Assembly (NCBI RefSeq): GCF_003226565.1
Contig: NZ_QKOE01000002.1
Location: forward strand, 62,001-126,000
Direction of reading: 5' to 3'
Source of the DNA: Parazoarcus communis SWub3 = DSM 12120
GTDB taxonomy: Bacteria > Pseudomonadota > Gammaproteobacteria > Burkholderiales > Rhodocyclaceae
Length of the DNA stretch: 64,000 nt
Below the pieces are notes generated by a model. The model made no database searches and was not told the DNA's origin. It worked only from the letters and a program-made list of their open reading frames with translations. Of the stretch, positions 4,368 to 62,683 are shown one piece after another (the stretch's first letter is position 1; each line of letters opens with the position of its first letter). The position numbers and the translations under genes are program-made.

Positions 4368-5720
4368 ATGCATGACTCTCAAACACTCAGGCGATCACTG
4401 ATGCCGTTCTCGGACACCCTGGCCCACAGCCCGACCGCGTTGCTCGAAACCGTCTTCGACGCACTGCCCGACAGTGTGTTCCTGATCGACCCCGACACTT
4501 CCCGCATCGTCTATTGCAATCGAGCCGCTTGGTCCGATCTGGGCTACGACCAGGCAAGCGACCTGCTCGACCACTCGGTACTCAGCCTGCAGAAAGACGT
4601 CATCGGGCCGGAGCAATGGCGCAGCATCGCGATCGAGATCCGCGCGCGCTCGCCTTATGTCTTCATCGGTCGCCACCGCCACCGCCAGGGCTGGGAACTG
4701 CCGGTCGAGGTCTATACCAGCTGCTTCGAGTTCGACGGTCGTGATTACTTCCTGTCGGTTGCCCGCGACATCACCACCCGTACCCAGCTGGAACGCGAAC
4801 TCAGCGCACGCGATGCACAGTTGCGCTTTGCACTGAATGAAGCCAGCGACGGGCTTTGGGATTGGGACATCATCAGCGGATCGGTGTTCTTCAGCCCACA
4901 ACTCAAACGCATGCTGGGCTACGGCCCCGAAGAGCTAGCCCCCCATCTGTCGAGCTGGGCCGACAACATCCATCCGGACGACGTGGTCTGGGTCCGATCC
5001 GTCATCGATGACCACCTCGCCGGCCGGCGCGAGCGTTTCGAAGCCGAATACCGCCTGCGCAACCGCAATGGCCACTATCTATGGGTTCATGATCGCGGCC
5101 GCATCTGCGAACGCGATCCGGATGGACGCCCCTTGCGCATGGTCGGCATGGTGCATAACGTCACCGACCGCAAGAACCTCGAACTCCGACTGCAGCGCCT
5201 GGCCTCGCACGACAGCCTGACCGGCTTGTTGAACCGGCGGGAGAGCGAGATCATCCTCGAAACCCAGATCAGCCTGTGTCGACGCCTGCAACTACCGCTG
5301 GGCATCTGCCTGTTCGACCTCGACAACTTCAAGTCGATCAATGACGTCCACGGTCACCTGTGCGGCGATCAGGTCCTCGCCGGCGTCGCCGAACTATTCA
5401 ATCAGCACGTCCGCAGCGCAGACTACCTGTTCCGCTGGGGCGGTGAAGAGTTCATGCTGATCTGTGTCGACACCACGCTGGAACAACTTCAGCAGCGTGT
5501 CGAAGGGCTGCGCACCCTGCTCGAGTCCAAAACCTGGGACACCCTGCCCGCGCTGGGCAAGGTCACCGCCAGTTTCGGCATCGCGGTATTCCCTGACCAC
5601 GGCGACAGTGCCCGCGAACTGTTCATTGCTGCGGATGCGGCACTCTATCGCGCCAAGTCATGTGGTCGTAATCGGGTGGAACTTGCCGACACCTGGCCGG
5701 CAAACACCTTCACACCCTGA
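4368..5720 (+). CDS. PAS-PAS-GGDEF diguanylate cyclase
   Basis: This soluble 450-residue protein probably makes cyclic di-GMP. A PAS domain covers about residues 24-138 ([19 protein letters not shown]). A second PAS with a PAC segment covers about 150-268 ([24 protein letters not shown]). The GGDEF domain runs from about 275. Its active-site motif is intact as GGEEF (358-362). An RxxD inhibitory site (RSAD, 349-352) lies exactly five residues before it, so product feedback inhibition is expected. No membrane segments are seen. The ATG at 4368 sits only two bases after a GGGGAG sequence; the in-frame ATG at 4401 is a real alternative start. It is convergent with the chemoreceptor gene, overlapping it by 11 bases. 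Confidence 0.92.
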
Positions 5721-8940: not shown

Positions 8941-11900
8941 TCAATCCCCTCCGCGACGCAAGTCGAGAAACTCCCTCAGGTGACGCCCGGTGTGCGAAGC
9001 CGGTATCGCCATTGCCACCTCGGGCGGCCCTTCAGCCACCACCCGGCCACCTCCATCCCCACCTTCCGGCCCCAGGTCGATCAACCAGTCGGCCTCGGCC
9101 ATCACGTCCAGGTCATGCTCGATCACCAGCACGGTATGGCCGGCATCAGTCAGCCTGTGCAGCACATGGATCAACTTATCCACATCGGCCATGTGCAAGC
9201 CCACCGTCGGCTCATCCAGCACATAAAGGCTGTGCTTGTCGGCCGGCAAGGGTACGCCTCCGGTATCGCTCGCCTCTCCTGGACGTCTGCGCACCTTGGC
9301 AAGCTCGGTCACCAGTTTGATGCGCTGCGCCTCTCCGCCCGACAAGGTCGGACTGGGCTGCCCCAGGGTCAGGTAACCCAGGCCGACATCCTGCAGCAGC
9401 TGCAAGGGGTGGGCGATTGCCGGATGTGCGGCGAAAAAGCCCACCGCTTCGTCTACCGGCATCGCCAGAACCTCGGCCACGGTCTTGTCGCGCCAGCGCA
9501 CTGACAATGTTTCCGGGTTGAAACGTGCGCCACCACAGGCTTCGCAAGGGGTCTTCACATCGGGCAGGAAATTCATCTCCACCGTCGTCTGACCCGCACC
9601 ATCGCATACCGGACACCGCCCAGCCCCGGTATTGAAGGAGAAGCGCGATGCATTCCAGCCCCGGGTACGGGCGTCGAAGGTGTCGGCAAACAGCTTGCGG
9701 ATCGCATCCCAGAAACCCACATAGGTTGCCGGGCAGGAGCGTGGCGTCTTGCCGATGGGCGTCTGGTCCACTTCCAGCACGCGACCAACCTGCTGCCAGC
9801 CCTGCAGCGCACGGCAACCCACCAGCGGCTGATCCACCTCGTCCGGTTGCGCCTGACCTCTCCGCCGCGCCCGCGTCGCCTCCGGATCGCCCAGACGGGC
9901 ACGCAAGTTGGCATGGATCACATCGCGCGCCAGCGAGGACTTGCCCGACCCGGACACGCCGGTCACCACCGTCAGCCGTGCCAAGGGAATTTGCACCGTC
10001 ACATCGCTCAGGTTGTGCAGATCGGCCCCCTCCACCCGGATCGCCGGATGACGCTCAGCCACCTCACGGCGTGGTCGCATCGGATGCTGCAAGGGCTGAC
10101 GGAAGCAAGCGCCGGTCGCCGACTCCGGCGCGGCCAGCAAGGCTGCCACGTCACCTTCGGCCACCACCCGGCCACCGCGCACCCCCGCACCCGGACCAAG
10201 GTCGATGACATGATCGGCACGGCGGATGGTGTCCTCATCATGCTCCACCACCAGCAGGGTGTTGCCACGGTCGCGCAAGGCCTCCAGCGTGTCGAGCAAC
10301 AGACGGTTGTCACGCGGATGCAGGCCAATGGTCGGCTCGTCGAGGATATAGCAGACGCCACGCAAGTTGGAGCCCAGCTGGGCCGCCAGCCGGATGCGCT
10401 GAGCCTCGCCCCCGGACAAGGTCGGTGCAGCCCGGTCCAGTGCGAGGTAGCCCAACCCGACGTGACGGAGAAAATCCAGCCGGCCACGGATCTCGCTGAT
10501 CAGATCGCGGGCAATATCGGTTTCGCGTGCATTCAGTTCCAATTCACTGAAGAAGCCCGCTGCCTTATCCACCGGCAACGCAGCCAGCTGATGCAGGCCG
10601 CGGTCACGGAAGCGCACTGCACGCGCAACCGGATTCAGGCGCGCACCTTCACAGGCCGGACAGGCTTCGTCCTCGCTCACCATCTCTTCGGCATCACCCA
10701 GATCGAGCGCATCCGGATCCTCGATCCGGCTGGTGGTCTTCAGGCCGGTGCCATAACATTTCGGACACCAGCCATGTTTGGCGTTGTACGAGAACAGGCG
10801 CGGATCCGGCTCCGGAAAACCCGTGCCGCAATCCGGGCAGGCACGCAGCGTCGAAAAGGTGACCGGCTGGGCGCCAAGCTTACCCAGTTCCAGCACCTTC
10901 AACACACCCTTGCCGTGCTCGAGCGCGACCTGCACGAACTCGCGCAGTGTGGTTTCCGACGCCGGCTGCACCACCACCATGCCAACCGGCAACTCGATGG
11001 TGTGTTCCTTGTAGCGATCCAGCCGTGGCCACTTGGCAGTCGGCAGGTACTCGCCATCGACGCGCAACTGGGTGTGCCCCTTTCCGCGTGCCCATTTCGC
11101 AAGATCGGTATACAAACCCTTGCGGTTACTGACCAGCGGCGCCAGCACTTCGACCGATGTATCACGGTGTTCACGCAGGATCTGGCCGACAATGGCCTCG
11201 AAGCTTTGCGGCGTGACCGGCACATTGCAGTCGGGGCAGTACTGGGTGCCAAGCTTGACGTACATCAGGCGCAGGAAGGGATGGATCTCGGTCAGCGTCG
11301 CTACCGTGCTCTTGCGCCCGCCACGGCTGGTACGCTGCTCGATCGCCACCGTGGGCGGAATGCCGAACAGGCCATCCACATCCGGACGGCTTGCCGGTTG
11401 CACGAACTGGCGCGCATAGGCATTGAGCGACTCCAGATAGCGACGCTGCCCCTCGCCAAACACGATGTCGAAAGCCAGTGTGGATTTGCCCGAGCCAGAC
11501 AAGCCCGTCACCACGGTGAAACGGTCACGTGGAATCGACACGCTGATGTTCTTCAGATTGTGCTCACGGGCATGGCGGATCTCGATCTCGGGTGCCGCCA
11601 GCGTCCGATAAGCAACCGCTGGCTCGGCCAGGATCAAAGGTGCCGCCCGTGTTCGCGCCAGCGCTTCGGCGTAGTCGCGCAAGGCTGCAGCAGTGTGCGA
11701 CAGCCGATGCGCGCGCAGCACGTCCACCGGGCCCTCGGCCACGATCTGTCCACCCGCCTCGCCTCCTTCCGGCCCCAGGTCGATGATCCAGTCGGCGGCT
11801 GCAATCACATCGAGATTGTGCTCGATGACGATCAGCGAATGCCCCGCCTGCAACAGCTTGTCGAAGGCGCCCAGCAAGGTGGCGACATCCTCGAAATGCA

Positions 11901-14556
11901 GGCCGGTAGTCGGTTCGTCGAACAGGAAGAGCAGACCGGGCTCCACCTTGTCCACAAATTTCTCAACAAGGTTATCCACAGGCCGGACCTTGCGCGCGGA
12001 CTTCTTCTGCGCCGCCTCGGCAAGATGACCTGCCAGCTTCAGGCGCTGCGCCTCGCCACCGGACAAGGTCGGCACCGGTTGCCCCAAGCGCAGGTAATCC
12101 AGCCCGACATCAGCCAACGGCGCCAGTGCAGCCAGTACCTTGGGCTGATCATCAAAAAACTGCAGCGCCTCACGCACCGTCATGTCCAGCACATCTGCAA
12201 CCGACTTGCCACGCCACTGCAACTCGAGGATTTCCGGGCGATAGCGCTTGCCATCGCAATCCGGACAACGCAGCCACACATCGGACAGGAACTGCATCTC
12301 GACATGCTCGAAACCCGAACCGGTACAGGTCGGGCAACGACCGTGGCCCGAGTTGAAACTGAAGGTGCCCGGCGAATAGCCACGCTCCTTGGCCTGCGGC
12401 AGTGCGGCGTACAGGTTGCGGATCGAATCCCAGGCACCCACATAGCTCACGGGATTGGAACGCGAACTCTTGCCGATCGCCGACTGATCGACCATCACCA
12501 CACCACGCAACTTATCCACACCTTCGAGGCGCTCGAATGCCCCCGGCGTCTCGACGGCCTCGCCAAAATGTTTGGCCAGTGCCGGATACAGTACGTCCTG
12601 GATCAGCGTCGACTTGCCCGACCCCGATACGCCCGTCAGACAGGTCATGCGGCCGAGCGGAAAATCCACCGTCAGGTTGCGCAGATTGTGCTCGCAGGCC
12701 CCGACAAGACGCAGCCGCGGCGTGTCATCGCAAACCGGTCGCGGCGGACGCTGCACATCGATACGCTTGCTGCCAGCCAGCCAGGGCCCGGTAATGGAGT
12801 CAGGATTGGCGGTGATTTCGGCCGGCGTGCCGCGCGCAACGATATTGCCGCCACGCTCGCCCGGCCCCGGTCCGATCTCCAGCAGTTCATCCGCAGCCAC
12901 CATCACCTGCGGGTCGTGCTCCACCACCACCAGGGTATTGCCGGCATCGCGCAGACGCGTCATCACCCCAAGAATCCGCCCGATATCACGCGGATGCAGG
13001 CCGATCGACGGCTCATCGAGCACGAACAGGGTATTCACCAGCGAGGTACCCAGCGCCGTCGTCAGGTTGATGCGCTGCACTTCACCGCCCGACAAGGTGC
13101 GTGACTGCCGGTCCAGGGTCAGGTACCCCAGTCCCACATCGGCCAGATAGGTCAGCCGGCTGCGGATCTCGCCCAGCACCAGTTCAGTCGCCTCATCGGC
13201 GATTCCCGGAAAGACCAGCGCATCCACGGCCTGACGGATACGATCCACCGGCAGCGCCATCAACTGGTGTATCGCCAGGCCCGGACCATCCTGCATCGGC
13301 AAGCGCCACAACAGCGCTTCGGGTTTGAGTCGGGCACCGTGGCAAGCCGGACATTCGGTGTAGCTGCGATAACGCGACAGCAGCACCCGGATGTGCATCT
13401 TGTAAGCCTTGGTCTCGAGCCAGGCAAAGAAGTGACGCACGCCATACCAGTAGCGCGGCCAGGAGCTGTCCCAGTTCTTCCACTTCTCGTCGCCTTCCAG
13501 CACCCAGCGCCGGTGCTCCGGCGGCAGGTCGCGGAAAGGAATGTCCATCGCCACCCCGGCCTTCTTCGCCATCTTGGCCAGGTCCTGCTGACATTCCTTG
13601 TAGCTCTCGGTCTGCCAGGGTTTGATCGCGCCTTCGGCCAGAGTCTTGGACTCATCCGGCACCACCAGCCCGAAATCCACCCCGATCACCCGACCGAAAC
13701 CCCGGCAGGTCTCGCACGCACCGATTGCCGAATTGAACGAGAACAGACCCGGGCTGGGGTCGTTGTAATGAATGTCGCAGTCGGCACAGTGCAGCCCATC
13801 GGAGTAGCGCCAGGCCACCTCCCCCTGCACCACGCCGTCACCACTGGCAAACACGGTCAGCCGTCCATGCCCCAGCCGCAAGGCAGCTTCCAGCGCTTCT
13901 GCCAGGCGTGACGGCTCTGCTGACGACAAGCGGAAACGGTCTTGCACCACCTGCAGCACATCTCCATCGCTACCTTCGTCCCGGCGGTGGATGCGGGTGT
14001 AGCCCTGTACATTGAGCAAGGCGGTGACTTCAGCCTCGGTGTAGGCCTTCGGTATCGTCACTGCAAAACAGATCACCAGTCGCGGATCACCCGCCGCCGC
14101 ACAGCGTTGCTGCAGATCTGCCGCAATGCTGTCTGTGGAATCCCGACGTACCGGCTCACCGCAACTGCGACAATGCAGACGCGCGGCACGTGCATACAGC
14201 AGCTTGAAATGGTCGGCGAGCTCGGTCATCGTGCCCACCGTCGAGCGCGAGGTCCTTACCTGGCTGGTCTGATCGATCGCAATCGCCGGCGGCACGCCCT
14301 CGATACGATCCACCTGCGGCTTGTCCATCCGGTCCAGAAACTGCCGCGCATACGGCGAAAAGGTCTCGACATAGCGACGCTGACCCTCGGCATACAAGGT
14401 ATCGAACACCAGCGAGGACTTGCCGGAGCCGGACACCCCGGTCACTACCGTCAGCTGGTTGAGGGGCAGATCGAGCGACAGATTGCGCAGATTGTTCTGG
14501 CGCGCACCGCGGATGCGGATGGCGTCAGGGGTGGAACGGGGATCAGCTTCGGACAT
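8941..14556 (-). CDS. uvrA: Tandem (double-length) UvrA-type excinuclease ATPase
   Basis: At 1,871 residues this is about twice the length of a normal UvrA (about 940) and contains two complete UvrA units in one chain. There are four Walker A motifs: [13 protein letters not shown] (about residue 39), [26 protein letters not shown] and [13 protein letters not shown]. Four LSGGE(V/A)QR signatures and four DEP(S/T) Walker B segments are present. Each unit has its own CxxC zinc-finger pairs (for example CADC/CETC and CPTC/CPDC in the first, CPDC/CPKC and CPVC/CEAC in the second). UvrA scans DNA for bulky lesions and loads UvrB in nucleotide excision repair. Long UvrA fusions are known in betaproteobacteria, normally beside a standard uvrA elsewhere. 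A charged insertion (about [17 protein letters not shown]) lies before the second Walker B. Confidence 0.93.
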
Positions 14557-25487: not shown

Positions 25488-26123
25488 TCAAGTCCGACCG
25501 TAGCGATGCACCAGCGCCCACAGCAGGCGAGTGGTTGAGGGGTGATGCAAGCGAGGCATCGCGTCAATGATCAGTACAAAACGGTTTATCCCAATGTGAA
25601 CCGGCCAGAATCCTACCTGGCTGTTGCCTGATGCATTGACCACCCCCCAGGCGGATGTACCCAGGCCCAGCGCATCCTGAAGCAGGGCGATGTTCCGGTC
25701 GTGAATGGAACACAGACTGGCTGAAAGGGCGGCAAGCTCTTCGGCAACGGCTTCCGGATAGCCCGTATTGGCTACGCAGAAGCCTTGGGGATCGGCCAGC
25801 ACAACCTTGCCTGTGGTCGAGAGTGCCGGCAGCAGATCGGGGAGCAGGATCTCGAAGGGTTCATTGGGTACGGTAAGCGGCCTGTCGAAACCTTCCAGCC
25901 ACCCTGCCTGCTGCATGGACCGGATGAGTGTCGTCGTATCGGTACGGTCGAGGCCGCTGAGTGACATGATCGTGTTCAGCTCGGCACGCGGACTGCGATC
26001 GCATTGCAGTATTTGCAGGATGAACTGCGCTGCCGGTTCAGGCCTGTTCATGCTGACTGCGTGGTATGCACCTGCCGGACTGGGCAGGAAGTAGCCCGTG
26101 ACCCGGGTACCTTCATTCATCAT
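25488..26123 (-). CDS. Unrecognised protein, last gene of the Roadblock-GTPase locus
   Basis: I do not recognise the full-length family. The 211-residue protein is soluble. The N-terminal half looks like a small winged-helix region (ILQILQCDRSPRAELNTIMSLSGLDRTDTTTLIRSMQQAGWLEGF), and the C-terminal half (about residues 95-200: GKVVLADPQGFCVANTGYPEAVAEELAALSA, then RFVLIIDAMPRLHHPSTTRLLW) has the alternating pattern of a Roadblock/LC7-like domain, the partner fold of small prokaryotic GTPases. The start overlaps the end of the GTPase gene by 11 bases, so the two are probably translationally coupled. A role as GTPase partner or output is inference. Confidence 0.8.
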   Translation of the reverse strand: MMNEGTRVTGYFLPSPAGAYHAVSMNRPEPAAQFILQILQCDRSPRAELNTIMSLSGLDRTDTTTLIRSMQQAGWLEGFDRPLTVPNEPFEILLPDLLPALSTTGKVVLADPQGFCVANTGYPEAVAEELAALSASLCSIHDRNIALLQDALGLGTSAWGVVNASGNSQVGFWPVHIGINRFVLIIDAMPRLHHPSTTRLLWALVHRYGRT

Positions 26124-26661
26124 CGGGCTCCATCAGGCCAGGATCGATTGAATACAGCAGGGCTTTGAGCAAGGTCCGCATGTCTTCATTGGAGCGAGCG
26201 TCGACCTCGAACACCGGGACATTCCATCCCAGTCTTGCAAGATGTGCGTGGTAGTCCTCGATATATGGATGCGGTGCCAGGTCCATATGACTCACGCCAA
26301 CGACAAAACGTGTCTGTTCGATCAAGGTGTGGAACGCCTTCAGGAAGAACTCGACTTCATCCAGTGGAGAGGGGCGATTGTTGTTGATCAGCACGACCAG
26401 TCCGATGCAGCCCTCGCTGAGGATCTCCCACATGAAATCGAATCGCGCCTGGCCGGGCGTCCCGTACAGGTGAATGTGCCCATTGCCGTCGAGATCGATC
26501 CGGCCGTAATCCATCGCGACGGTGGTGGTCAGCTTGAGCCGGGCGGTCTCATCGGAGGCCTGCGCATCCGTTCTGACAGGGTCGATATCGGAAAGTGATG
26601 AAATGGCGGTTGTCTTTCCCGCGCCCACCGGGCCGGTAAAAATGATCTTGTGATGACTCAT
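26113..26661 (-). CDS. Small Arf/SRPRB-like GTPase
   Basis: This 182-residue single-domain GTPase has a P-loop GPVGAGKTT (residues 10-18), a switch II YGTPGQARFDFMW in place of the usual DTPG, and SHMD in place of NKxD for guanine recognition. These variants are typical of the MglA/CvnD-like group of bacterial GTPases that work with Roadblock/LC7 proteins. Such GTPases act as polarity or signalling switches. The gene overlaps the preceding gene by four bases (ATGA) and the next by 11, so it belongs to a tightly coupled operon with Roadblock, CZB and EAL proteins. Confidence 0.9.
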   Translation of the reverse strand: MSHHKIIFTGPVGAGKTTAISSLSDIDPVRTDAQASDETARLKLTTTVAMDYGRIDLDGNGHIHLYGTPGQARFDFMWEILSEGCIGLVVLINNNRPSPLDEVEFFLKAFHTLIEQTRFVVGVSHMDLAPHPYIEDYHAHLARLGWNVPVFEVDARSNEDMRTLLKALLYSIDPGLMEPDDE

Positions 26662-27785
26662 GAGTATTCGTTTGCCGAGCGGCTCGAAAAGATCCGCTTC
26701 AGGATGCGGGACAGCAGCTTGCGCCTGTCGGGCTGGCCGCCTGCAAGGTCCGGTCTGGGGGCTGAGGGCTTCAGGATGCGTTGTTCATCTTGCGAATCGA
26801 TCAGCTCGAGCGCAGTGCATGCCGTGTGAAAGACGTGGATGTCGCTGGCTGAGATCATCAGCTTGCGTGCGGTTTCATCGATGGAGCATTGGCCCGATAG
26901 CCAGAGGGGGACGATCTGCATGGCGTGCGGTGTGGCGAGCAGGCGCGTCAGGTTTGGCCAATGACGCAGGCGTACCGGTGTGTCCCCGGAGGTGCCTTCG
27001 ATGAGGCGTCCGCGCGAGGTCCAGATGGCAAGACGCCACAACAGGGGATCCAGCGCTTCTGCTGCGCTGCCGGTAGGTCGAGTGATGGTGCCGTGATCGA
27101 GGGGGACAAGGTGAAAGCGTATGCGTGTCAGGGCGATGGAGCGTAGAACTTTGTCCGTCATTCCGGTGCAGGCACAGCGGGACGATGCATCGACCTTGAC
27201 GGCGGGGAGGTCCCAGCGAATCTCGACCGGCTTGCCTTGTGCCCGCGACAGGCGCCTGGCCTGCATCATGGCGCCGAACAGGTAGTTGTCGGGCTGAAAG
27301 GTGGTGGCGCTACCTTCGGTCGTGTTATCCGACTGGAACAGATAGTGGTTGAACGCTCTATCGTCCATGGCCAGCGCCACTCCCGCGACCCGGGTCGAAT
27401 GATCGTGTCCGAGGCGGGATGGCTCGGCGATCTGTTGTATTGTCGTGACTGAGGCTCGCTCCTGTGCCAGCAGGCGCTCGATTGCATGCTCGAGCGTGGC
27501 GGAAAGCGCTGAGGGGCTGACTGGCTTCTGCAGGAACAGTACGTTTTCGGGATGTGCGCGATTGGCACTGATGACGACCACGACCGAGTTGATCGGGGTC
27601 GAGTTCAGGTCGTGCTGAGCCAGGCGTCTGCCTTCCTGCGTGTCGATGTCGATCAACAGGATATTGGCTTGAGATGGATCCTCCGCAAGCAGGTATCGAT
27701 TCTCGCCGAACTGTCTGAAGAAATACTCATAGGCGTAGCGAGTCTGAAGATCCATACCAAGCAAGGCACATCTCGCCTTGCTCAT
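26658..27785 (-). CDS. Receiver-like protein of the Roadblock-GTPase locus
   Basis: This 375-residue protein appears to begin with a receiver-like domain (about residues 4-105): a strand ending LLIDID (46-48) where the phospho-acceptor aspartate would be, a serine at 73 and the conserved-type lysine in LQKPVS (87). The acidic pair normally at the end of the first strand is missing (LLGMD instead), so phosphorylation is doubtful. The rest (about 150-340) is not recognised; near its end QCSIDETARKLMISASDIHVFHTACTALELI (residues given in parts) resembles a helix-turn-helix or small helical domain. It overlaps the genes on both sides by four bases (ATGA). Confidence 0.8.
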   Translation of the reverse strand: MSKARCALLGMDLQTRYAYEYFFRQFGENRYLLAEDPSQANILLIDIDTQEGRRLAQHDLNSTPINSVVVVISANRAHPENVLFLQKPVSPSALSATLEHAIERLLAQERASVTTIQQIAEPSRLGHDHSTRVAGVALAMDDRAFNHYLFQSDNTTEGSATTFQPDNYLFGAMMQARRLSRAQGKPVEIRWDLPAVKVDASSRCACTGMTDKVLRSIALTRIRFHLVPLDHGTITRPTGSAAEALDPLLWRLAIWTSRGRLIEGTSGDTPVRLRHWPNLTRLLATPHAMQIVPLWLSGQCSIDETARKLMISASDIHVFHTACTALELIDSQDEQRILKPSAPRPDLAGGQPDRRKLLSRILKRIFSSRSANEYS

Positions 27786-28429
27786 GATCGTCGTCTGGCT
27801 GAGGCCCGGGCATCGGCCTCATCGAGGAAGTGCTCGAGCTTTCTCAAGGCGGTGAATAGCGCCGGATCCGAAGGCCATTTTTTTAGTCCGAGCGAGAGCA
27901 GATGACGTCCGGAATCGGTTCGTCCTTCAAGAATGTGGTCGCTGGCTTGCGAAAGCAGATCCTGGACTGTGCTGCCGTCCATGTTGAGGACATTGCTTGG
28001 CCTGGCTTCTCCGGTGCCATCGTCCGCGATGGAAAAGCGGGTGTTACCGCTGGTCCCACTGGCAAGTACGGATCCGAGACCGGGGGGAATGGGCTCATGT
28101 GGATCAAGTCCTGGATCCAGCTTCAATTGCAGCCACTGGGCCACGATCTCGTCCAGCCGATCGGAACACCGTTCAAGCATGTGGCGGCGCAGTCCGCAAC
28201 CCCGCTTGCCGAGCACCAGGTACAGATCGACAAGCGCACCTGCCAGCTGGGTCGGAGTGCCTTTGTCGTAAAGATGAAGGATGCGCTGCACGTGGCTGCG
28301 TAGTTCGTGGGGCTGGCGGGCAACCCGGAATGCAAACCAGCGATTGGTTTCCTCGACATCCAGTCCGCGACCTGCACGATGCAGATGTTTGCGTCCAGGC
28401 AGCACGAATCCAACGTCAGCTCTCATCAT
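27782..28429 (-). CDS. Unrecognised protein of the Roadblock-GTPase locus
   Basis: This 215-residue soluble protein is not recognised. The N-terminal two thirds are mostly helical and rich in Leu and Arg (RSHVQRILHLYDKG, LAGALVDLYLVLGKRGCGLRRHML). A Ser/Gly-rich linker follows, then a C-terminal segment (QASDHILEGRTDSGRHLLSL, then DPALFTALRKLEHFL) that could be one TPR-like helical pair. Two ATGs stand side by side at 28429 and 28426. Its end overlaps the receiver-like gene by four bases, which supports a real gene and a shared function. Confidence 0.75.
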   Translation of the reverse strand: MMRADVGFVLPGRKHLHRAGRGLDVEETNRWFAFRVARQPHELRSHVQRILHLYDKGTPTQLAGALVDLYLVLGKRGCGLRRHMLERCSDRLDEIVAQWLQLKLDPGLDPHEPIPPGLGSVLASGTSGNTRFSIADDGTGEARPSNVLNMDGSTVQDLLSQASDHILEGRTDSGRHLLSLGLKKWPSDPALFTALRKLEHFLDEADARASARRRS

Positions 28430-28479
28430 CGGGTGTCCAGAGTAGGCTTACGAAGTTTGCAGGCGGTGGTGAGGGAATG

Positions 28480-28860
28480 CTATTTGGGGCTGCGGCTGGA
28501 TTGGGTGCCGGCCTTATCCAGCTCGATCAGCAGATTCACCAGTTGAAACGACAGTCGATGCATTTCGGTGACGGCTTGTTCGGCGCCTTCGAGGTCGCCC
28601 TTTTCCTTGAGTGCAAGGGCGCGATGACTGGCTTCATGGAATGCCTCGTGCGGTCCGAACAACTGTTTGAAGATATTCGTTGCGTCGTCGCCGCAAGTCG
28701 CAACCTCCTGCATGCCTGTGCCGTGCATCCAGCTACCAAGTTTGCAGGCGGTATGAGGGCAGCCGGTAAAGTCGCCGCGACCGGCCAGTGTGGCCTCGAT
28801 GTTGTTCAAGTAGCGGATATGGTCGTTCAGCCGCTGCAGGAAGAATGCGCCTTGAGCCAT
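28480..28860 (-). CDS. Stand-alone CZB zinc-binding protein
   Basis: This 126-residue protein consists of a single CZB domain (chemoreceptor zinc-binding, PF13682-like). The 3His/1Cys zinc ligands are H14 (NDHIRYL), C39 (HTACKLGSW), H71 and H75 (GPHEAFHEA). In other proteins CZB domains are fused to chemoreceptors or diguanylate cyclases, where zinc or hypochlorous acid controls activity; a stand-alone form next to an EAL protein and a Roadblock protein suggests a diffusible sensor. A CGGAG ribosome binding site precedes the ATG, and the gene starts 14 bases after the Roadblock gene. Confidence 0.87.
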   Translation of the reverse strand: MAQGAFFLQRLNDHIRYLNNIEATLAGRGDFTGCPHTACKLGSWMHGTGMQEVATCGDDATNIFKQLFGPHEAFHEASHRALALKEKGDLEGAEQAVTEMHRLSFQLVNLLIELDKAGTQSSRSPK

Positions 28861-28874
28861 ATCGGGTGTCTCCG

Positions 28875-29240
28875 TCAGCCCACCATTCGGGCAACTTCCT
28901 GTGCGGTCCGCTTGACGTCGAGAAAAACCAGGCCAAGCTTGGCACCCGGTCGGGTCAGGACGGTGAGCACGGCGTTTTCACCCGCGTAGGTCATCAGCAC
29001 GAAACCCTTGTCACCCTTGACCAGAACCTGTTCCATGGTGCCGCGTGCCAGTTCCTGTGCGGTGCGGTCTCCCAGTGACAGCATGGCTGCGCTCATGGCA
29101 CCCACCCGATCTTCGTCCATGCTTGCCGGCAGCAAGGAAGCAATGATCAAGCCGTCTGTCGAGATGATTGCGGAGGCTTCAATGTCGGTAGAACTGCTGT
29201 TGAGTTGGCTGAGCAGTGAATTCAGCATGTCTGCGCGCAT
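28875..29240 (-). CDS. Roadblock/LC7-domain protein
   Basis: This 121-residue protein is one Roadblock/LC7 domain, like MglB: LLSQLNSSSTDIEASAIISTDGLIIASLLP, then DRVGAMSAAMLSLGDRTAQEL, and LVKGDKGFVLMTYAGENAVLTVL (segments of about 10 to 95). Such proteins dimerise and act as GTPase-activating or adaptor partners of small GTPases; a matching GTPase is encoded four genes downstream. The ATG at 29240 is used; an ATG five codons later is a possible alternative. Confidence 0.93.
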   Translation of the reverse strand: MRADMLNSLLSQLNSSSTDIEASAIISTDGLIIASLLPASMDEDRVGAMSAAMLSLGDRTAQELARGTMEQVLVKGDKGFVLMTYAGENAVLTVLTRPGAKLGLVFLDVKRTAQEVARMVG

Positions 29241-29341
29241 GATGACGTCTCATTTTCATGGTGAAGGCCCGACGCTTCCGGGGTTCATGTATGTACTCAT
29301 TATGGATCAAAAAATGACAATAGTGAAACGCTTATAGTCCA

Positions 29342-31156
29342 TCAGGATACGGAAGCGGCAGATGTGTCAGGGCTGAACGAGACGGTGCTGGCCTGTTGCT
29401 TGAGCAGCAGCGCCTGGCAGCTGGCTGAGTCCATGGCGGGATAGAACAGCCATCCCTGCATGCAGGTACAACCCATGCGCTCGAGCAATGCAAGATCGTC
29501 GAGGTTTTCGACGCCTTCAGCCACGACCTCCTGTCCGAGTAACCGGCCCAGCATCAGCGTGGCATCGACAATGGCGGCGTTGCAACTTCTGGAGGCCATG
29601 CCATTGACGAAGCGTCGGTCGATCTTGAGGCGATCGAAGCAAAGGGACTGCAAGCGCGCAAACGAGGCGAAGCCTGTACCAAAATCATCCAGTGCAAGGC
29701 CTATGCCTTTCTGCCGGAGTTGCTGGACATTGCGGGTAGCGAGATCGTGATGTTCGATCAGCGCCGATTCAGTGATCTCGAGTTCGATCAGCGAAGCCGG
29801 AACCCGGTGTTTGTCCAGCAGGCGGTCGACCGCATCGGCAAAGTCCGGGTTGGACAGGGAACATGCCGAGATGTTGATCGCCATCCGTGTCCGGATGCCG
29901 GATGCCTGCCAGTTGCTGTAGTGGCCAAGCGCCGTGTCCAGCACCCAGTTGTCCAGCCAGTAGGCCAGGCCGGCATGTTCGGCAAGCGGGACGAAGCAGA
30001 GCGGTGAAATGGTGCCGAATTCCGGGTGGCGCCATCGCAGCAGGCATTCGACACCGACGATCCTGTTCCCGGGGCATTCCACCTGGGGTTGGAAGTACAG
30101 GTCAAGTTCCTGCTGGCCGGTCTGCAGCAGATTGCTCAGGGAGGACATGATCTCGTCCTGTTGTGGTGAGTCGACCGGATCATGTGTGGACGGCTGGTGC
30201 GGACATGCATGAACCGTGGCCCCCTGGCAGACGCAGGCGGGACCTTCTCCGTGCGCGGTGGGATAGGGGGAGGCAACCAGCGAATACCATGCGGTTCCTT
30301 CACCGTCACAACGATGCACGATGACGTCGACAAGCGTCCGGAACTGCCCGGTATCGGTTCTGAAGTAAAGTTTGCGATTGCTGTGCGATCCGGTCTCGGT
30401 TGCCGATATCAGCGCCTTGACCTCGTTGGCGTCGGTGATGGTGATGACCTCATCCAGGTCCACCGGACCTGTCCGTCCTGCGCTACGAAGGCTGTTGCCG
30501 AGCGCGCGGCGCGCGGCCGGGTTCAGGTAGATCAGCTGATGGTTGGCGTTGAACTGCAGCACCCATGTGGATGCAGCTTCAACCACGGCGAGCCAGGCCA
30601 GCCGTTCGTTGTCCAGCCGAACCACTTCCTGCTCGTCGTCGACGAAGATCAGGATCGAAGTGGAGGATTCCATGGGGACCGACACCACACCGATCCGTAC
30701 CGGGTGAAGGTCTCCGCTGCTTCGCCGGATCATGGCATGTACGTCCTTGCTGCCGATCTTGGGGAAGCCTGGCCCGGACACCGGAAACAGGGTGTCGACC
30801 TGCAGCCCGACGAGGGCGATCTCGTCGAAATAGCCCAGTTGATCGAGCAGTCGATGGTTGCAGGCGAGAATCCGGCCATCATCACTGACCTTGATCAGGC
30901 CGGCAGGCAGGTCGCAGAATATGTTCTCGTAGGTACGCTGCAACTCGCCATAGCGACGGGAAAGGCTGCGAAGCTCCGTTTCGGCGGGCATGAGGCGCCT
31001 GACGGTATGGAGGGTGCCGAGCAGCCCCATCGAAAGTCCGATCAGGCTGACGAAGATGGCAATAGCACTGCCTTGCACAATCACCAGGCCAAGCGAGGAT
31101 GCCGTGATCAGCCCAAGGGCGATTGCCAGGCGCATGCTGTTATCGTTGTTCAACAT
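29342..31156 (-). CDS. Membrane PAS-PAS-EAL cyclic di-GMP phosphodiesterase
   Basis: This 604-residue protein has two N-terminal transmembrane helices (about residues 9-50), two PAS-like domains (about 70-180 and 185-290) and an EAL domain (about 345-585). The catalytic and metal-binding set appears complete: ECLLRW for the EAL motif, NISA, ELEITES, DDFGTGFAS, LKIDRRF, AEGVEN and QGWLF. It should therefore hydrolyse cyclic di-GMP. No GGDEF domain is present. It is the first gene of the minus-strand signalling locus, 101 bases before the Roadblock gene, so the two may share a transcript. Confidence 0.9.
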   Translation of the reverse strand: MLNNDNSMRLAIALGLITASSLGLVIVQGSAIAIFVSLIGLSMGLLGTLHTVRRLMPAETELRSLSRRYGELQRTYENIFCDLPAGLIKVSDDGRILACNHRLLDQLGYFDEIALVGLQVDTLFPVSGPGFPKIGSKDVHAMIRRSSGDLHPVRIGVVSVPMESSTSILIFVDDEQEVVRLDNERLAWLAVVEAASTWVLQFNANHQLIYLNPAARRALGNSLRSAGRTGPVDLDEVITITDANEVKALISATETGSHSNRKLYFRTDTGQFRTLVDVIVHRCDGEGTAWYSLVASPYPTAHGEGPACVCQGATVHACPHQPSTHDPVDSPQQDEIMSSLSNLLQTGQQELDLYFQPQVECPGNRIVGVECLLRWRHPEFGTISPLCFVPLAEHAGLAYWLDNWVLDTALGHYSNWQASGIRTRMAINISACSLSNPDFADAVDRLLDKHRVPASLIELEITESALIEHHDLATRNVQQLRQKGIGLALDDFGTGFASFARLQSLCFDRLKIDRRFVNGMASRSCNAAIVDATLMLGRLLGQEVVAEGVENLDDLALLERMGCTCMQGWLFYPAMDSASCQALLLKQQASTVSFSPDTSAASVS

Positions 31157-33709: not shown

Positions 33710-35008
33710 TCAAAGATCCTGTTTTGCCCGATACATCGCCTGATCGGCGTGCCGTAGCAGTTGTTCGATGTCATTGCCATGATCGGGGTACAGGGCGATG
33801 CCGACGCTGGCCGTGATGCGGGCCTCGGCGTTCTCCAGCGTGATGGCGGGTGCAAGCGCTTCGCGTATCTTCGCTATTACGGCCAGGACATCGGTTTCGT
33901 CACTCACATCTTCCATCAGGACCACGAATTCGTCCCCGGCAAGCCGGGCGACGGTATCGCTGGCGCGTACTGTACCTGCCAGCCGGGTGGCAAACTCGCG
34001 CAGGAGCAGGTCACCACTGGCATGGCCAAAGCTGTCGTTGATCTGCTTGAAGTCGTCGACATCCACATAAAGCAATCCCAGGCGGGACTGTTTTCGCTGG
34101 CAGCGTGCAAGTGCTTGCCGGGTGCGGTCGTAAAGCAGCCGGCGATTCGGTAGCCGGGTCAGTTCATCGTACAAGGCCGCCTGCAGCAACTCGGCCTTGA
34201 GTCGGGTGCGTTCGATGGCGATTGCGGCCTGTGCGGCGATGAATTCCATGAGTTCGCGGTCGATGCCCGAGTAAGTCTCACCTGGTGGAGTTTTGAGCAT
34301 CGCAACGCCGACTGGGCCGTTGCGGGTTGTCAGTGGCAGGATCAGCAGGTATCCGTCATCTTTCCAGCAGGCGGGAAGTGCCTTGCCCTCCAGCATCCGC
34401 GCTTTACCGCCAGCCAGCACATCCGTGCACAGGCTACTGCCAACCGGGGTGCCTGCTTCATCATCTGGCCAAAGATGGCGGTAGCTGAAGGACAACTCGT
34501 CTGATGTGCCGTGGCAGGTGGCAACAGCAACGGCGGTGACGGGTATCAGGCTGGCGACGATGTGGTGCAGCTCGGCAAACAGGGCGTCTGCATCGGCTGC
34601 ATTCTGAGTCGCTTCCGAGACGGCATAGACGGCAGCCTGCATGGTCTCCACGCGTTTCTGCCGGGTGATATCCCTCGCCACGCCCAGCCGAAGGCGGTCT
34701 CCGTCGACCCAGCGTGCGGACCAGGTCAGATGGACCACATGCCCGTCCTTGTGGCGATATCGGTTCTCGAAACCGATGCGGCCTTCACCGCCCATCACCT
34801 TGGCTGCCTCAGCCCGGGTGCGTTCGCGGTCTTCAGGCAATACCAGTTCGATCATCGGATGACCGATCAGCGACGACGGCGGATACCCCAGGATGCGCTC
34901 ACACGCTGCGTTGGCAAACACGATCCGGCCGGTTTCGTCGACCAGAAAAACCATGTCGAGCAACAGGTCGATGAAGTTGGGGATGCGCTGTTCAATGTTC
35001 GTGTTCAT
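33710..35008 (-). CDS. PAS-GAF-GGDEF diguanylate cyclase
   Basis: This soluble 432-residue protein has a PAS domain (about residues 8-120: LLLDMVFLVDETGRIVFANAA), a GAF-like domain (about 125-268) and a GGDEF domain (about 275-432). The active-site motif is AGDEF (357-361), an active variant in many cyclases. An RxxD inhibitory site (RASD, 348-351) lies five residues before it. It probably synthesises cyclic di-GMP in response to a bound small molecule or redox signal; the ligand is unknown. It is convergent with the MscS gene, 53 bases away. Confidence 0.92.
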   Translation of the reverse strand: MNTNIEQRIPNFIDLLLDMVFLVDETGRIVFANAACERILGYPPSSLIGHPMIELVLPEDRERTRAEAAKVMGGEGRIGFENRYRHKDGHVVHLTWSARWVDGDRLRLGVARDITRQKRVETMQAAVYAVSEATQNAADADALFAELHHIVASLIPVTAVAVATCHGTSDELSFSYRHLWPDDEAGTPVGSSLCTDVLAGGKARMLEGKALPACWKDDGYLLILPLTTRNGPVGVAMLKTPPGETYSGIDRELMEFIAAQAAIAIERTRLKAELLQAALYDELTRLPNRRLLYDRTRQALARCQRKQSRLGLLYVDVDDFKQINDSFGHASGDLLLREFATRLAGTVRASDTVARLAGDEFVVLMEDVSDETDVLAVIAKIREALAPAITLENAEARITASVGIALYPDHGNDIEQLLRHADQAMYRAKQDL

Positions 35009-61801: not shown

Positions 61802-62683
61802 ATGCCCAGCGCTTCCCGCACCACCCTTGGATTGGCCTTATCGCTTGCCCTGCTTGGCGGGGCGATGTCGCCGCCAGTGCTGGCGCAGGGTGGCGAGACC
61901 GTGCGTTTGTCCGAGCGTTGGGACGAAAAGCGGGCCACCGCCTTGCTTGAACGTGCGGTCAAGCATGTCGAGGCCAAGGGTGAGGCAGCGCTGGCGGATT
62001 TCAGCCGGCAGGGCGAGTTCATCGACCGCGACCTGTATGTTTACGCCATGGCCATGGATGGGCGTTTTCTCGCCAGTGGTGGCTCGTCGGCTGCATTGAT
62101 CGGGCAGAACGTGGCCGAGCGTACCGATGCAGCCGGCAAGCCCTTCTTTCGCGAACTGCTGGACAAGGCTGCCGCACAAGGCGGTGGCCGGGTGGAATAC
62201 CGCTGGCTGAACCCGGTGCAGAACCGCGAGGAGCCCAAGGTCACGCTGTTCCGCAAGGTGGGCGACACCGTGGTGGCGGTGGGTTTCTACGCACCGCGGG
62301 CAACGGCGGCCCAGGCCCAGGCCATGCTGGAGCAGGCGGTGGCGGCACTGGCGCTGGATGCCAATGCCGCGCTGGCCGATTTCCAGAAAATCGGCGGCAA
62401 CTACACCCAGGACGACCTGTATGTGTTCGTCGTCGACATGAAGGACGGACGCTTCCTTGCTCACGGCGCCACGCCCGCACTGGTCGGCCGCAATGGCCAC
62501 GAACTGCGCGATCCCAAGGGTAAGGCGATCATCACCGACATGATCAATGTGGCCAGCCGCAAGGGGGCGGGCGAGATCGACTACGCCTGGCGCAACCCCA
62601 CCACGTCCAAGGTGGAAAGCAAGCATACGTATTTTCGAGCGGTCGACGGCAAGCTGGTTGGTGTAGGCTACTACATTCGCTGA
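61802..62683 (+). CDS. Exported protein with two Cache domains
   Basis: This 293-residue periplasmic protein has a signal peptide (ending VLAQ, about residue 29) and two similar Cache-like sensor domains in tandem (about 45-165 and 175-293; compare [19 protein letters not shown] with [20 protein letters not shown], and [17 protein letters not shown] with [17 protein letters not shown]). Unlike chemoreceptor Cache domains it has no transmembrane or signalling part. A binding-protein role is inferred. The ATG at 61802 follows AGGAGACACCC. Confidence 0.87.

Follow-up and report, generated by a model that had tools for sequence, protein, structure and literature searches.

A probable six-gene Group 3 MglA operon with a stand-alone CZB gene in Parazoarcus communis

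We analysed a stretch of 64,000 nucleotides from Parazoarcus communis SWub3 (the window; positions 62,001 to 126,000 of contig NZ_QKOE01000002.1, forward strand), in which positions 25488-31156 hold seven open reading frames on the minus strand, among them genes for a small GTPase of the MglA family and a stand-alone chemoreceptor zinc-binding (CZB) protein (Table 1). From upstream to downstream the genes are EAL, Rob, CZB, X4, REC5, GTP and X7; EAL is separated from Rob by 101 bases, Rob from CZB by 14 and CZB from X4 by 50, and the last four genes overlap by 4, 4 and 11 bases. An initial annotation, made from the sequence alone, had listed the same seven frames and the same overlaps. In Pfam the seven proteins gave matches to EAL and PAS, Robl_LC7, CZB and P-loop GTPase-type families, GTP matching ATP_bind_1 above the cut-off and Ras and others below it; X4, REC5 and X7 of the window had no match at the cut-off. 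The six genes from Rob to X7 are grouped far beyond chance, and they almost certainly form a unit of the Group 3 MglA type.

Table 1. Genes and other features of the locus, in coordinates of the window.
Feature	Position	Strand	Description
Rob	28875..29240	-	single-domain Roadblock/LC7 (MglB-type) protein, 121 aa, probable GTPase-activating protein (GAP); first gene of the unit
CZB	28480..28860	-	stand-alone chemoreceptor zinc-binding protein, 126 aa, 3His/1Cys site
X4	27782..28429	-	TPR-type protein, 215 aa
REC5	26658..27785	-	receiver-like N-terminus, middle domain, winged-helix-like C-terminus, 375 aa
GTP	26113..26661	-	MglA-family small GTPase, Group 3 by motifs, 182 aa
X7	25488..26123	-	winged-helix-like N-terminal part and C-terminal Roadblock domain, 211 aa; second MglB-type protein
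EAL	29342..31156	-	PAS-PAS-EAL protein, hydrophobic N-terminus, 604 aa; neighbour, probably outside the unit
promoter-like site	29299..29327	-	TTCACT, 17 bases, CATAAT, in the EAL-Rob gap; 9/12 matches; weak evidence

The motifs of GTP are characteristic. Its P-loop reads GPVGAGKT; G2 (TTTVAMDYG) holds a threonine pair, with a threonine in place of the Group 1 arginine finger; G3 (LYGTPGQ) contains the GTPGQ motif; G4 (VSHMD) is without the conserved lysine; and G5 (VDARS) carries the DAR motif. Wuichet and Sogaard-Andersen (2014; PMC4316618; papers identified by PMC number are cited throughout from part of their text) list such features for Group 3 MglA proteins, and they describe the Group 3 neighbourhood as a receiver-like/winged-helix-like protein, one MglA and one or two MglB proteins. 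The same neighbourhood is found here, the winged-helix part being read from the secondary structure of a model. The mgl operon of Snodgrassella is classed as Group 3 in PMC11112851, and loci of Snodgrassella and Neisseria are among the best 80 of 583 GTPase matches in our search; their GTPases are close homologues in the same tree, which included no members of Groups 1, 2, 4 or 5. From the motifs, the neighbourhood and the papers on Group 3, we predict that GTP is a small Ras-type GTPase belonging to the MglA family, with Group 3 motifs, and not the 'Arf-like' protein of the initial annotation. The likeness to MglA/MglB and to the actinobacterial conservons that had been pointed out at the outset is borne out, the locus being an MglA-family operon.

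Rob had been recognised as a Roadblock/LC7 protein, and its match to Robl_LC7 (E 1.5e-17), the sole one to this family in the whole genome, agrees. Its Asp29-Gly30 pair is invariant in 23 rows; an Asp-Gly pair facing the GTPase is a mark of MglB proteins of Groups 2-5 (PMC4316618). X7 and X4, which were left as unrecognised in the initial annotation, have no Pfam match in the window's copies and are placed through their homologues. Thirteen of 41 X7 homologues match Robl_LC7, and the predicted structure of X7 (mean predicted local distance difference test score, pLDDT, 93.3) has a winged-helix-like start followed by a Roadblock domain. The model matches Myxococcus MglB (6hjm) at E 1.0e-4 (Z 8.8, root-mean-square deviation (rmsd) 3.3, 113 residues aligned), and the top row of the fold search is 7f8f (Z 10.2, rmsd 3.0 over 79); one domain filled the list of matches, so that the winged-helix-like part was hardly covered. 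These results place X7 among the proteins with the Roadblock/LC7 fold, with a winged-helix-like front part. In place of the Asp-Gly pair X7 has Gln-Gly (consensus ADxQGF), and since Rob keeps the pair that X7 lacks, we take Rob as the probable GAP and X7 as its regulatory partner.

Homologues likewise suggest that X4 is a TPR-type protein: 14 of 35 match TPR_19, and the X4 profile matches several TPR chains, including FimV (4mal) at 5.7e-4. Long X4 homologues (467-563 residues) occur in Neisseria-type operons, most of them with a hydrophobic start segment. The REC5 model (pLDDT 83.3) shows a receiver fold (best match Z 13.0, rmsd 2.6, 117 aligned), and its C-terminus looks winged-helix-like; in this look-up, too, a single domain filled the list, and the middle and C-terminal parts were hardly covered. 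REC5 had been described as receiver-like with a damaged acidic pocket. The receiver fold stands, and the pocket is just partly reduced: over 37 homologues Asp46 is kept in 36, Ser/Thr73 in 35 and Lys87 in all, and at the end of beta-1 a single acidic residue (Asp in 26, Glu in 2) takes the place of the usual two.

The composition of the operon was followed in two samples. Among 150 relatives, counting the window's own genome, 17 have the GTPase, including the window's genome and none of four congeners. A scan of GTDB contigs with the GTPase gave 583 loci, of which the best 80 were used, and 20 further stretches brought the sample to 100; these loci are not all independent, the GTPases of L028 and L124 being identical and lying on contigs of equal length. 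Between the sets of stretches, DNA is shared by L210 and L048, L211 and L047, L213 and L093 (Thiocystis violacea), and L220 and L099. By profiles, REC5 is present in 94 of the 100 loci, Rob in 87, X7 in 85, X4 in 78 and CZB in 7, and the exact order X4-REC5-GTP-X7-Rob is found in 59, with short gaps or overlaps frequent. Judged from these profiles, the core usually comprises an MglA-family GTPase and two Roadblock proteins, together with one protein of TPR type and one of the receiver/winged-helix kind. Two contigs of metagenome-assembled genomes, L045 (Betaproteobacteria) and L046 (Proteobacteria), have the order Rob-CZB-X4-REC5-GTP-X7 identical to that of the window, and their genes upstream of Rob differ from the window's and are unrelated to them. 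In a quick GTPase tree (115 rows, long branches) the window, L045 and L046, all with CZB, form one clade with support 100. A label for loci with CZB only requires 5 changes on this tree by parsimony, 1 of them forced by well-supported branches, and a label for PAS only requires 11, with 5 forced. Repeated gain or loss is therefore supported for PAS and possible for CZB; with one forced change, several origins of the CZB label are not claimed. We also dropped an insertion history of the locus: 20-kb stretches of the congeners round one shared, DnaQ-like gene showed no further synteny with the window, so that no boundary could be drawn.

The stand-alone CZB protein of the initial annotation is confirmed by a Pfam match (PF13682; E 2.6e-11, 44.2 bits against a cut-off of 29.4) and by the presence of 3His/1Cys ligands, the predicted zinc site His14, Cys39, His71 and His75 being invariant in 9 rows. 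A search of the PDB with the CZB profile gave no chain at E <=0.01, although Pfam recognises the domain. CZB is found in 7 of the best 80 of 583 loci, which were selected by their GTPase and amount to 1.27 Mb. Against a background of 119 profile matches (E <=1e-5) in 369 genomes of the class, each of about 3 Mb, some 0.1 to 0.2 CZB genes would be expected in these loci. We also searched in reverse, with the CZB profile first and then for core genes nearby, in the same 369 genomes and in 210 genomes of the order to which genome G497 belongs. Three of the five best hits of the class sample outside the window's genome (E <=1e-30) adjoin core genes, namely a full operon (L155), Rob and REC5 (L157) and a divergent Rob alone (L156); the other two, L158 (a 3.4-kb contig) and L159, are without adjoining core genes. 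None of 11 weaker hits, in open frames of up to 201 codons, adjoins a core gene, several of these stretches being cut by contig ends. The order of G497 has 28 CZB hits in 26 genomes and 7 genera, with a core gene within 1.5 kb of CZB in 26 of the 28 and in six of the seven genera. The unlinked hits are L201, with contig ends nearby, and L207 (genome G569), with no core gene in its 14-kb stretch either. As 14 of the 26 genomes belong to one genus, the independent events are fewer than these counts.

CZB stands between Rob and X4 in the window, L045 and L046; elsewhere it lies after Rob at the end of the operon, between Rob and REC5, or directly after the GTPase gene, and the linkage has therefore been kept through rearrangements. 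CZB is very probably a functional component of the unit. The joining of a zinc-binding-type protein to a GTPase switch, which the initial annotation had found unusual, thus recurs in other operons. As a separate observation, positions 6664-8954 of L156 hold the CZB gene beside the divergent Roadblock gene and a gene for a 490-residue protein whose start looks, by eye, like that of a serine/threonine kinase; this protein has no Pfam match, and a GTPase gene was not found in the 13.5 kb fetched.

The genes that accompany the core were counted in 80 loci with REC5, GTP, X7 and Rob (full operons). Fifty of these encode a short PAS protein of about 158 residues, 49 of the 50 with a PhnD-like binding protein too; a protoglobin occurs besides PAS in six, CZB in five, the PhnD-like protein alone in four, and an ABC-ATPase/phosphatase fusion variant or its small companion in four. 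Seventeen have none of PAS, PhnD-like protein, protoglobin and CZB, and 15 of these seventeen fall, in the GTPase tree, into the Neisseria and Snodgrassella clade. The PAS protein of L084 matches the PAS domain of the Aer aerotaxis receptor (8dik) at E 2.9e-37, and the other PAS proteins were grouped with that of L084 by profile. Aer-type PAS and protoglobin families sense redox or oxygen, and for the CZB domain of Salmonella McpA, redox and oxygen sensing through zinc has been described in a 2026 preprint (PMC13370339). Most of ten PhnD-like N-termini printed lack a signal peptide by eye, and the PhnD-like proteins may therefore work in the cytosol. From this distribution we infer that CZB occupies an accessory-sensor position beside the Roadblock gene, one used mostly for redox or oxygen sensors. 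An apparent mutual exclusion of CZB and PAS (Fisher p 0.017, uncorrected for kinship) was dropped, as five loci (L202-L206) carry both; three of these genomes are also covered by longer stretches (L226-L228) with CZB and PAS. Since the two may occur together, the position would be additive as well as exchangeable.

Two other arrangements were seen. In L052, L098, L111, L114, L032 and L035 a variant Group 3-like operon encodes an ABC-ATPase fused to a dual-specificity-type phosphatase domain, together with a conserved protein of 134-136 residues (no Pfam match in the one tested), placed between the GTPase and Roadblock genes. In L049, L061, L064, L067 and L081 a conserved protein of 143-186 residues precedes the Roadblock gene (no Pfam match in two tested).

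Taking these observations together, we think it probable that the locus is a six-gene Group 3 MglA operon with CZB as its accessory sensor and with the signalling steps that follow. Zinc binding by CZB, set by zinc availability or redox state, would alter how the Rob/X7 pair acts on the GTPase; Rob would be the GAP, and X7 would have a regulatory or exchange role. For MfpD and MfpC, the homologues in conservons, GAP and guanine nucleotide exchange factor functions have been reported (PMC13343842). The GTP-bound GTPase might then act through REC5 on transcription, and through X4, as a protein-binding effector perhaps directed to the pilus or pole, in a manner comparable to SgmX for Myxococcus MglA. 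The accessory GAF or P450 proteins of conservons are believed to target the histidine kinase (PMC13343842). The present locus has no kinase gene, and the Roadblock pair seems the likeliest target of the sensor; we put an action of CZB through this pair on the GTPase at about an even chance. Type IV pili or surface behaviour as the output is a somewhat weaker proposition, which we hold tentatively. Pili are a reasonable target, because SgmX, a known TPR effector of MglA in Myxococcus, promotes type IV pili (PMC7519303) and an mglB mutation of Snodgrassella alters motile flares (PMC11112851).

The initial annotation had treated all seven genes as one unit that joins zinc sensing, cyclic di-GMP hydrolysis and a GTPase switch, and in such a unit CZB and the GTPase would control the PAS-EAL phosphodiesterase, with zinc and GTPase state setting cyclic di-GMP. 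The EAL gene does lie on the same strand as Rob, 101 bases away; its product looks intact and active, as had been said, with a strong Pfam match (E 9.5e-67) and the usual EAL-domain motifs; CZB domains are often fused to cyclic di-GMP enzymes (PMC8262984); and one Group 3-like locus of the 80 selected by GTPase, L098, has a PAS-GGDEF-EAL gene directly after Rob. However, L098 is the only one of these best 80 of 583 loci with an adjacent EAL gene on the same strand, EAL matches occurring in the flanks of six, and it is a variant without CZB in which X7 and REC5 were not found by profiles. The 23 stretches round CZB genes yielded a single EAL match (L224), which is some 5 kb off and encoded on the other strand, and L045 and L046, with their identical six genes, have unrelated genes upstream of Rob. 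In L050, a CZB-type operon outside the 23, an EAL match lies about 4 kb upstream on the same strand, and in none of the 24 CZB-type operons besides the window's (L045, L046, L050, L155, L157 and 19 of L210-L228) is an EAL gene directly beside the operon. The four congeners have neither the GTPase nor an EAL match at E <=1e-60, which is compatible with six- and seven-gene readings alike. Across the neighbourhoods of homologous loci, then, the six genes are found together and the clustering of the EAL gene is unsupported: it is not conserved beside the operon, and its ties are the shared strand and the 101-base gap alone. Most likely the neighbouring EAL gene forms a unit of its own, and a seven-gene unit is quite improbable. 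The pairing of a zinc-type protein with the GTPase survives from the earlier proposal, and the place of cyclic di-GMP hydrolysis in the operon does not.

Two further explanations keep the six genes and differ on what they do. The locus could be a transcription switch of a two-component-like kind, in which REC5 receives its phosphate from a kinase whose gene lies outside the locus. The GTPase and the Roadblock proteins would then do no more than adjust REC5, and CZB would either be a passenger or serve zinc homeostasis. The near-complete conservation of Asp46, Ser/Thr73 and Lys87 in 37 REC5 homologues is consistent with this, as are the winged-helix-like C-terminus (in the model and in PMC4316618) and the fact that most sampled Group 3 operons are without CZB. 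Yet Pfam finds no kinase domain in the seven proteins, one acidic residue of the REC5 pocket is missing or variable, and a CZB subfamily that is linked to the operon in six of seven genera of one order, and again in the window, L045 and L046, is hardly a passenger; we consider this explanation unlikely. The linkage of CZB could also reflect hitch-hiking of a mobile gene block with no functional coupling. The patchy distribution of the GTPase (17 of 150 genomes, no congener) and a CZB label largely shared by descent, with 14 of 26 CZB genomes in one genus and one forced label change, would fit such a history, but 26 of 28 linked hits and several positions of CZB argue against it, and we regard it as the least probable of the alternatives.

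A number of points weigh against the six-gene operon with CZB as accessory sensor. The PDB search with the GTPase profile gave 11 chains at E <=1e-6, all eukaryotic (Sec4, Rab1 and GSP1) and no MglA. With hhalign there is almost no alignment between the X7 and Rob profiles (probability 1.2), and the Roadblock identity of X7 was decided by the Pfam counts over homologues, the model and the fold search. Between EAL and Rob the promoter evidence is at chance level, with 2 promoter-like sites in 7 kb against 2.6 expected in shuffles. The CZB profile was made from operon-linked CZBs and favours such hits, and several of the 11 control stretches for the linkage end early at contig ends; genomes G569 and G224 have related CZB genes without core genes in the stretches fetched, and in L156 the neighbour is the divergent Rob alone. 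In L047/L211, L048/L210 and L217 the genes run REC5-GTP-CZB and the stretches covered contain neither Rob nor X7, so that an action of CZB through the Roadblock pair is not required in every operon. All 15 of the GTPase genomes covered have a PilT-family match above the cut-off, but the same holds for 143 of the 150 relatives, with or without the GTPase, so that co-occurrence gives the pilus target no support. The seven relatives without PilT all lack the GTPase; as 0.8 of them would be expected among its 17 carriers, this is uninformative. No biochemistry of any Group 3 system was found in the open-access literature covered, and every arrow of the mechanism is inferred.

Some other features of the window were noted by eye. 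A Cys/His-rich stretch (ACVCQGATVHACPHQP; 30170-30260, minus strand) in the linker before the EAL domain could bind metal. Two open reading frames resembling PAS/GGDEF-type diguanylate cyclases lie at 33710-35008 and 4368-5720, so that chance neighbours of this type are likely here. A frame of 1871 residues (8941-14556, minus strand) resembles a tandem fusion of two UvrA-type excinuclease subunits.

The core operon has been known since 2014, and the addition of CZB as a probable accessory sensor appears to be new. Beta- and gammaproteobacteria, including Neisseria, are the groups in which Group 3 MglA systems are found, and the open-access literature yielded no paper stating what they sense; nor did we find there, supplements aside, CZB, Aer-type PAS or protoglobin described as parts of MglA operons. 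The recurrent CZB pairing hints at what the Group 3 switches sense, and the accessory genes, which belong to known sensor families, provide a concrete and testable hypothesis for the input (redox, oxygen, zinc). One subfamily of CZB-only proteins gains a home, PMC8262984 naming no partner for such proteins in the part cited, and the two unrecognised genes find a place, X4 with the TPR-type proteins and X7 with the Roadblock proteins, the latter with a winged-helix-like part. More speculatively, and with less confidence than we give to the pilus or surface output, Group 3 MglA operons might represent a chemosensory pathway without CheA, in which interchangeable one-domain cytosolic sensors, mostly for redox or oxygen (Aer-type PAS, protoglobin, and CZB by way of zinc), signal through a Roadblock pair and a Ras-like GTPase to transcription and surface behaviour. 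CZB-only proteins of the subfamily seen here would then be G-protein regulators.

Compared with the Group 3 MglA systems of beta- and gammaproteobacteria (PMC4316618, PMC11112851), the window's operon has the same GTPase motifs, receiver and winged-helix protein, MglB-type proteins and taxonomic range, and it adds CZB and the TPR-type gene; the main text of PMC4316618, supplement aside, makes no mention of CZB, zinc, PAS domain, globin or TPR. The actinobacterial conservons (Cvn, Mfp; Group 2 MglA) share a GTPase with the DAR motif, a Roadblock protein and accessory genes. DUF742, which we take to be the label of CvnC, gave no match in the window's X7 (E <=1) or in the 41 X7 homologues (0.01). 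Unlike the conservons, the locus has no gene for the CvnA histidine kinase, and no kinase domain in its seven proteins; where a subset of conservons has CvnF (GAF) and CvnE (P450) as accessory genes (PMC13343842), the accessory proteins of Group 3 operons are small sensors of other families. The Myxococcus system of MglA, MglB, MglC, RomR and SgmX has in common a Ras-like switch, two Roadblock-family proteins (MglC being a paralogue of MglB), a receiver protein and a TPR effector (PMC7949163, PMC6785124, PMC7519303); the Group 1 arginine finger and TVPGQ of its MglA (PMC4316618) are absent from the window's GTPase, and here the genes stand in one operon with CZB added. CZB-only sequences make up 27.1% of CZB sequences in PMC8262984, the main text of which has no mention of a GTPase or roadblock protein. 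With these and with DgcZ, TlpD and McpA the window's protein shares the CZB family and the 3His/1Cys zinc site, whereas, unlike DgcZ, TlpD and McpA, it is encoded together with a GTPase module and is unfused to a chemoreceptor or cyclase.

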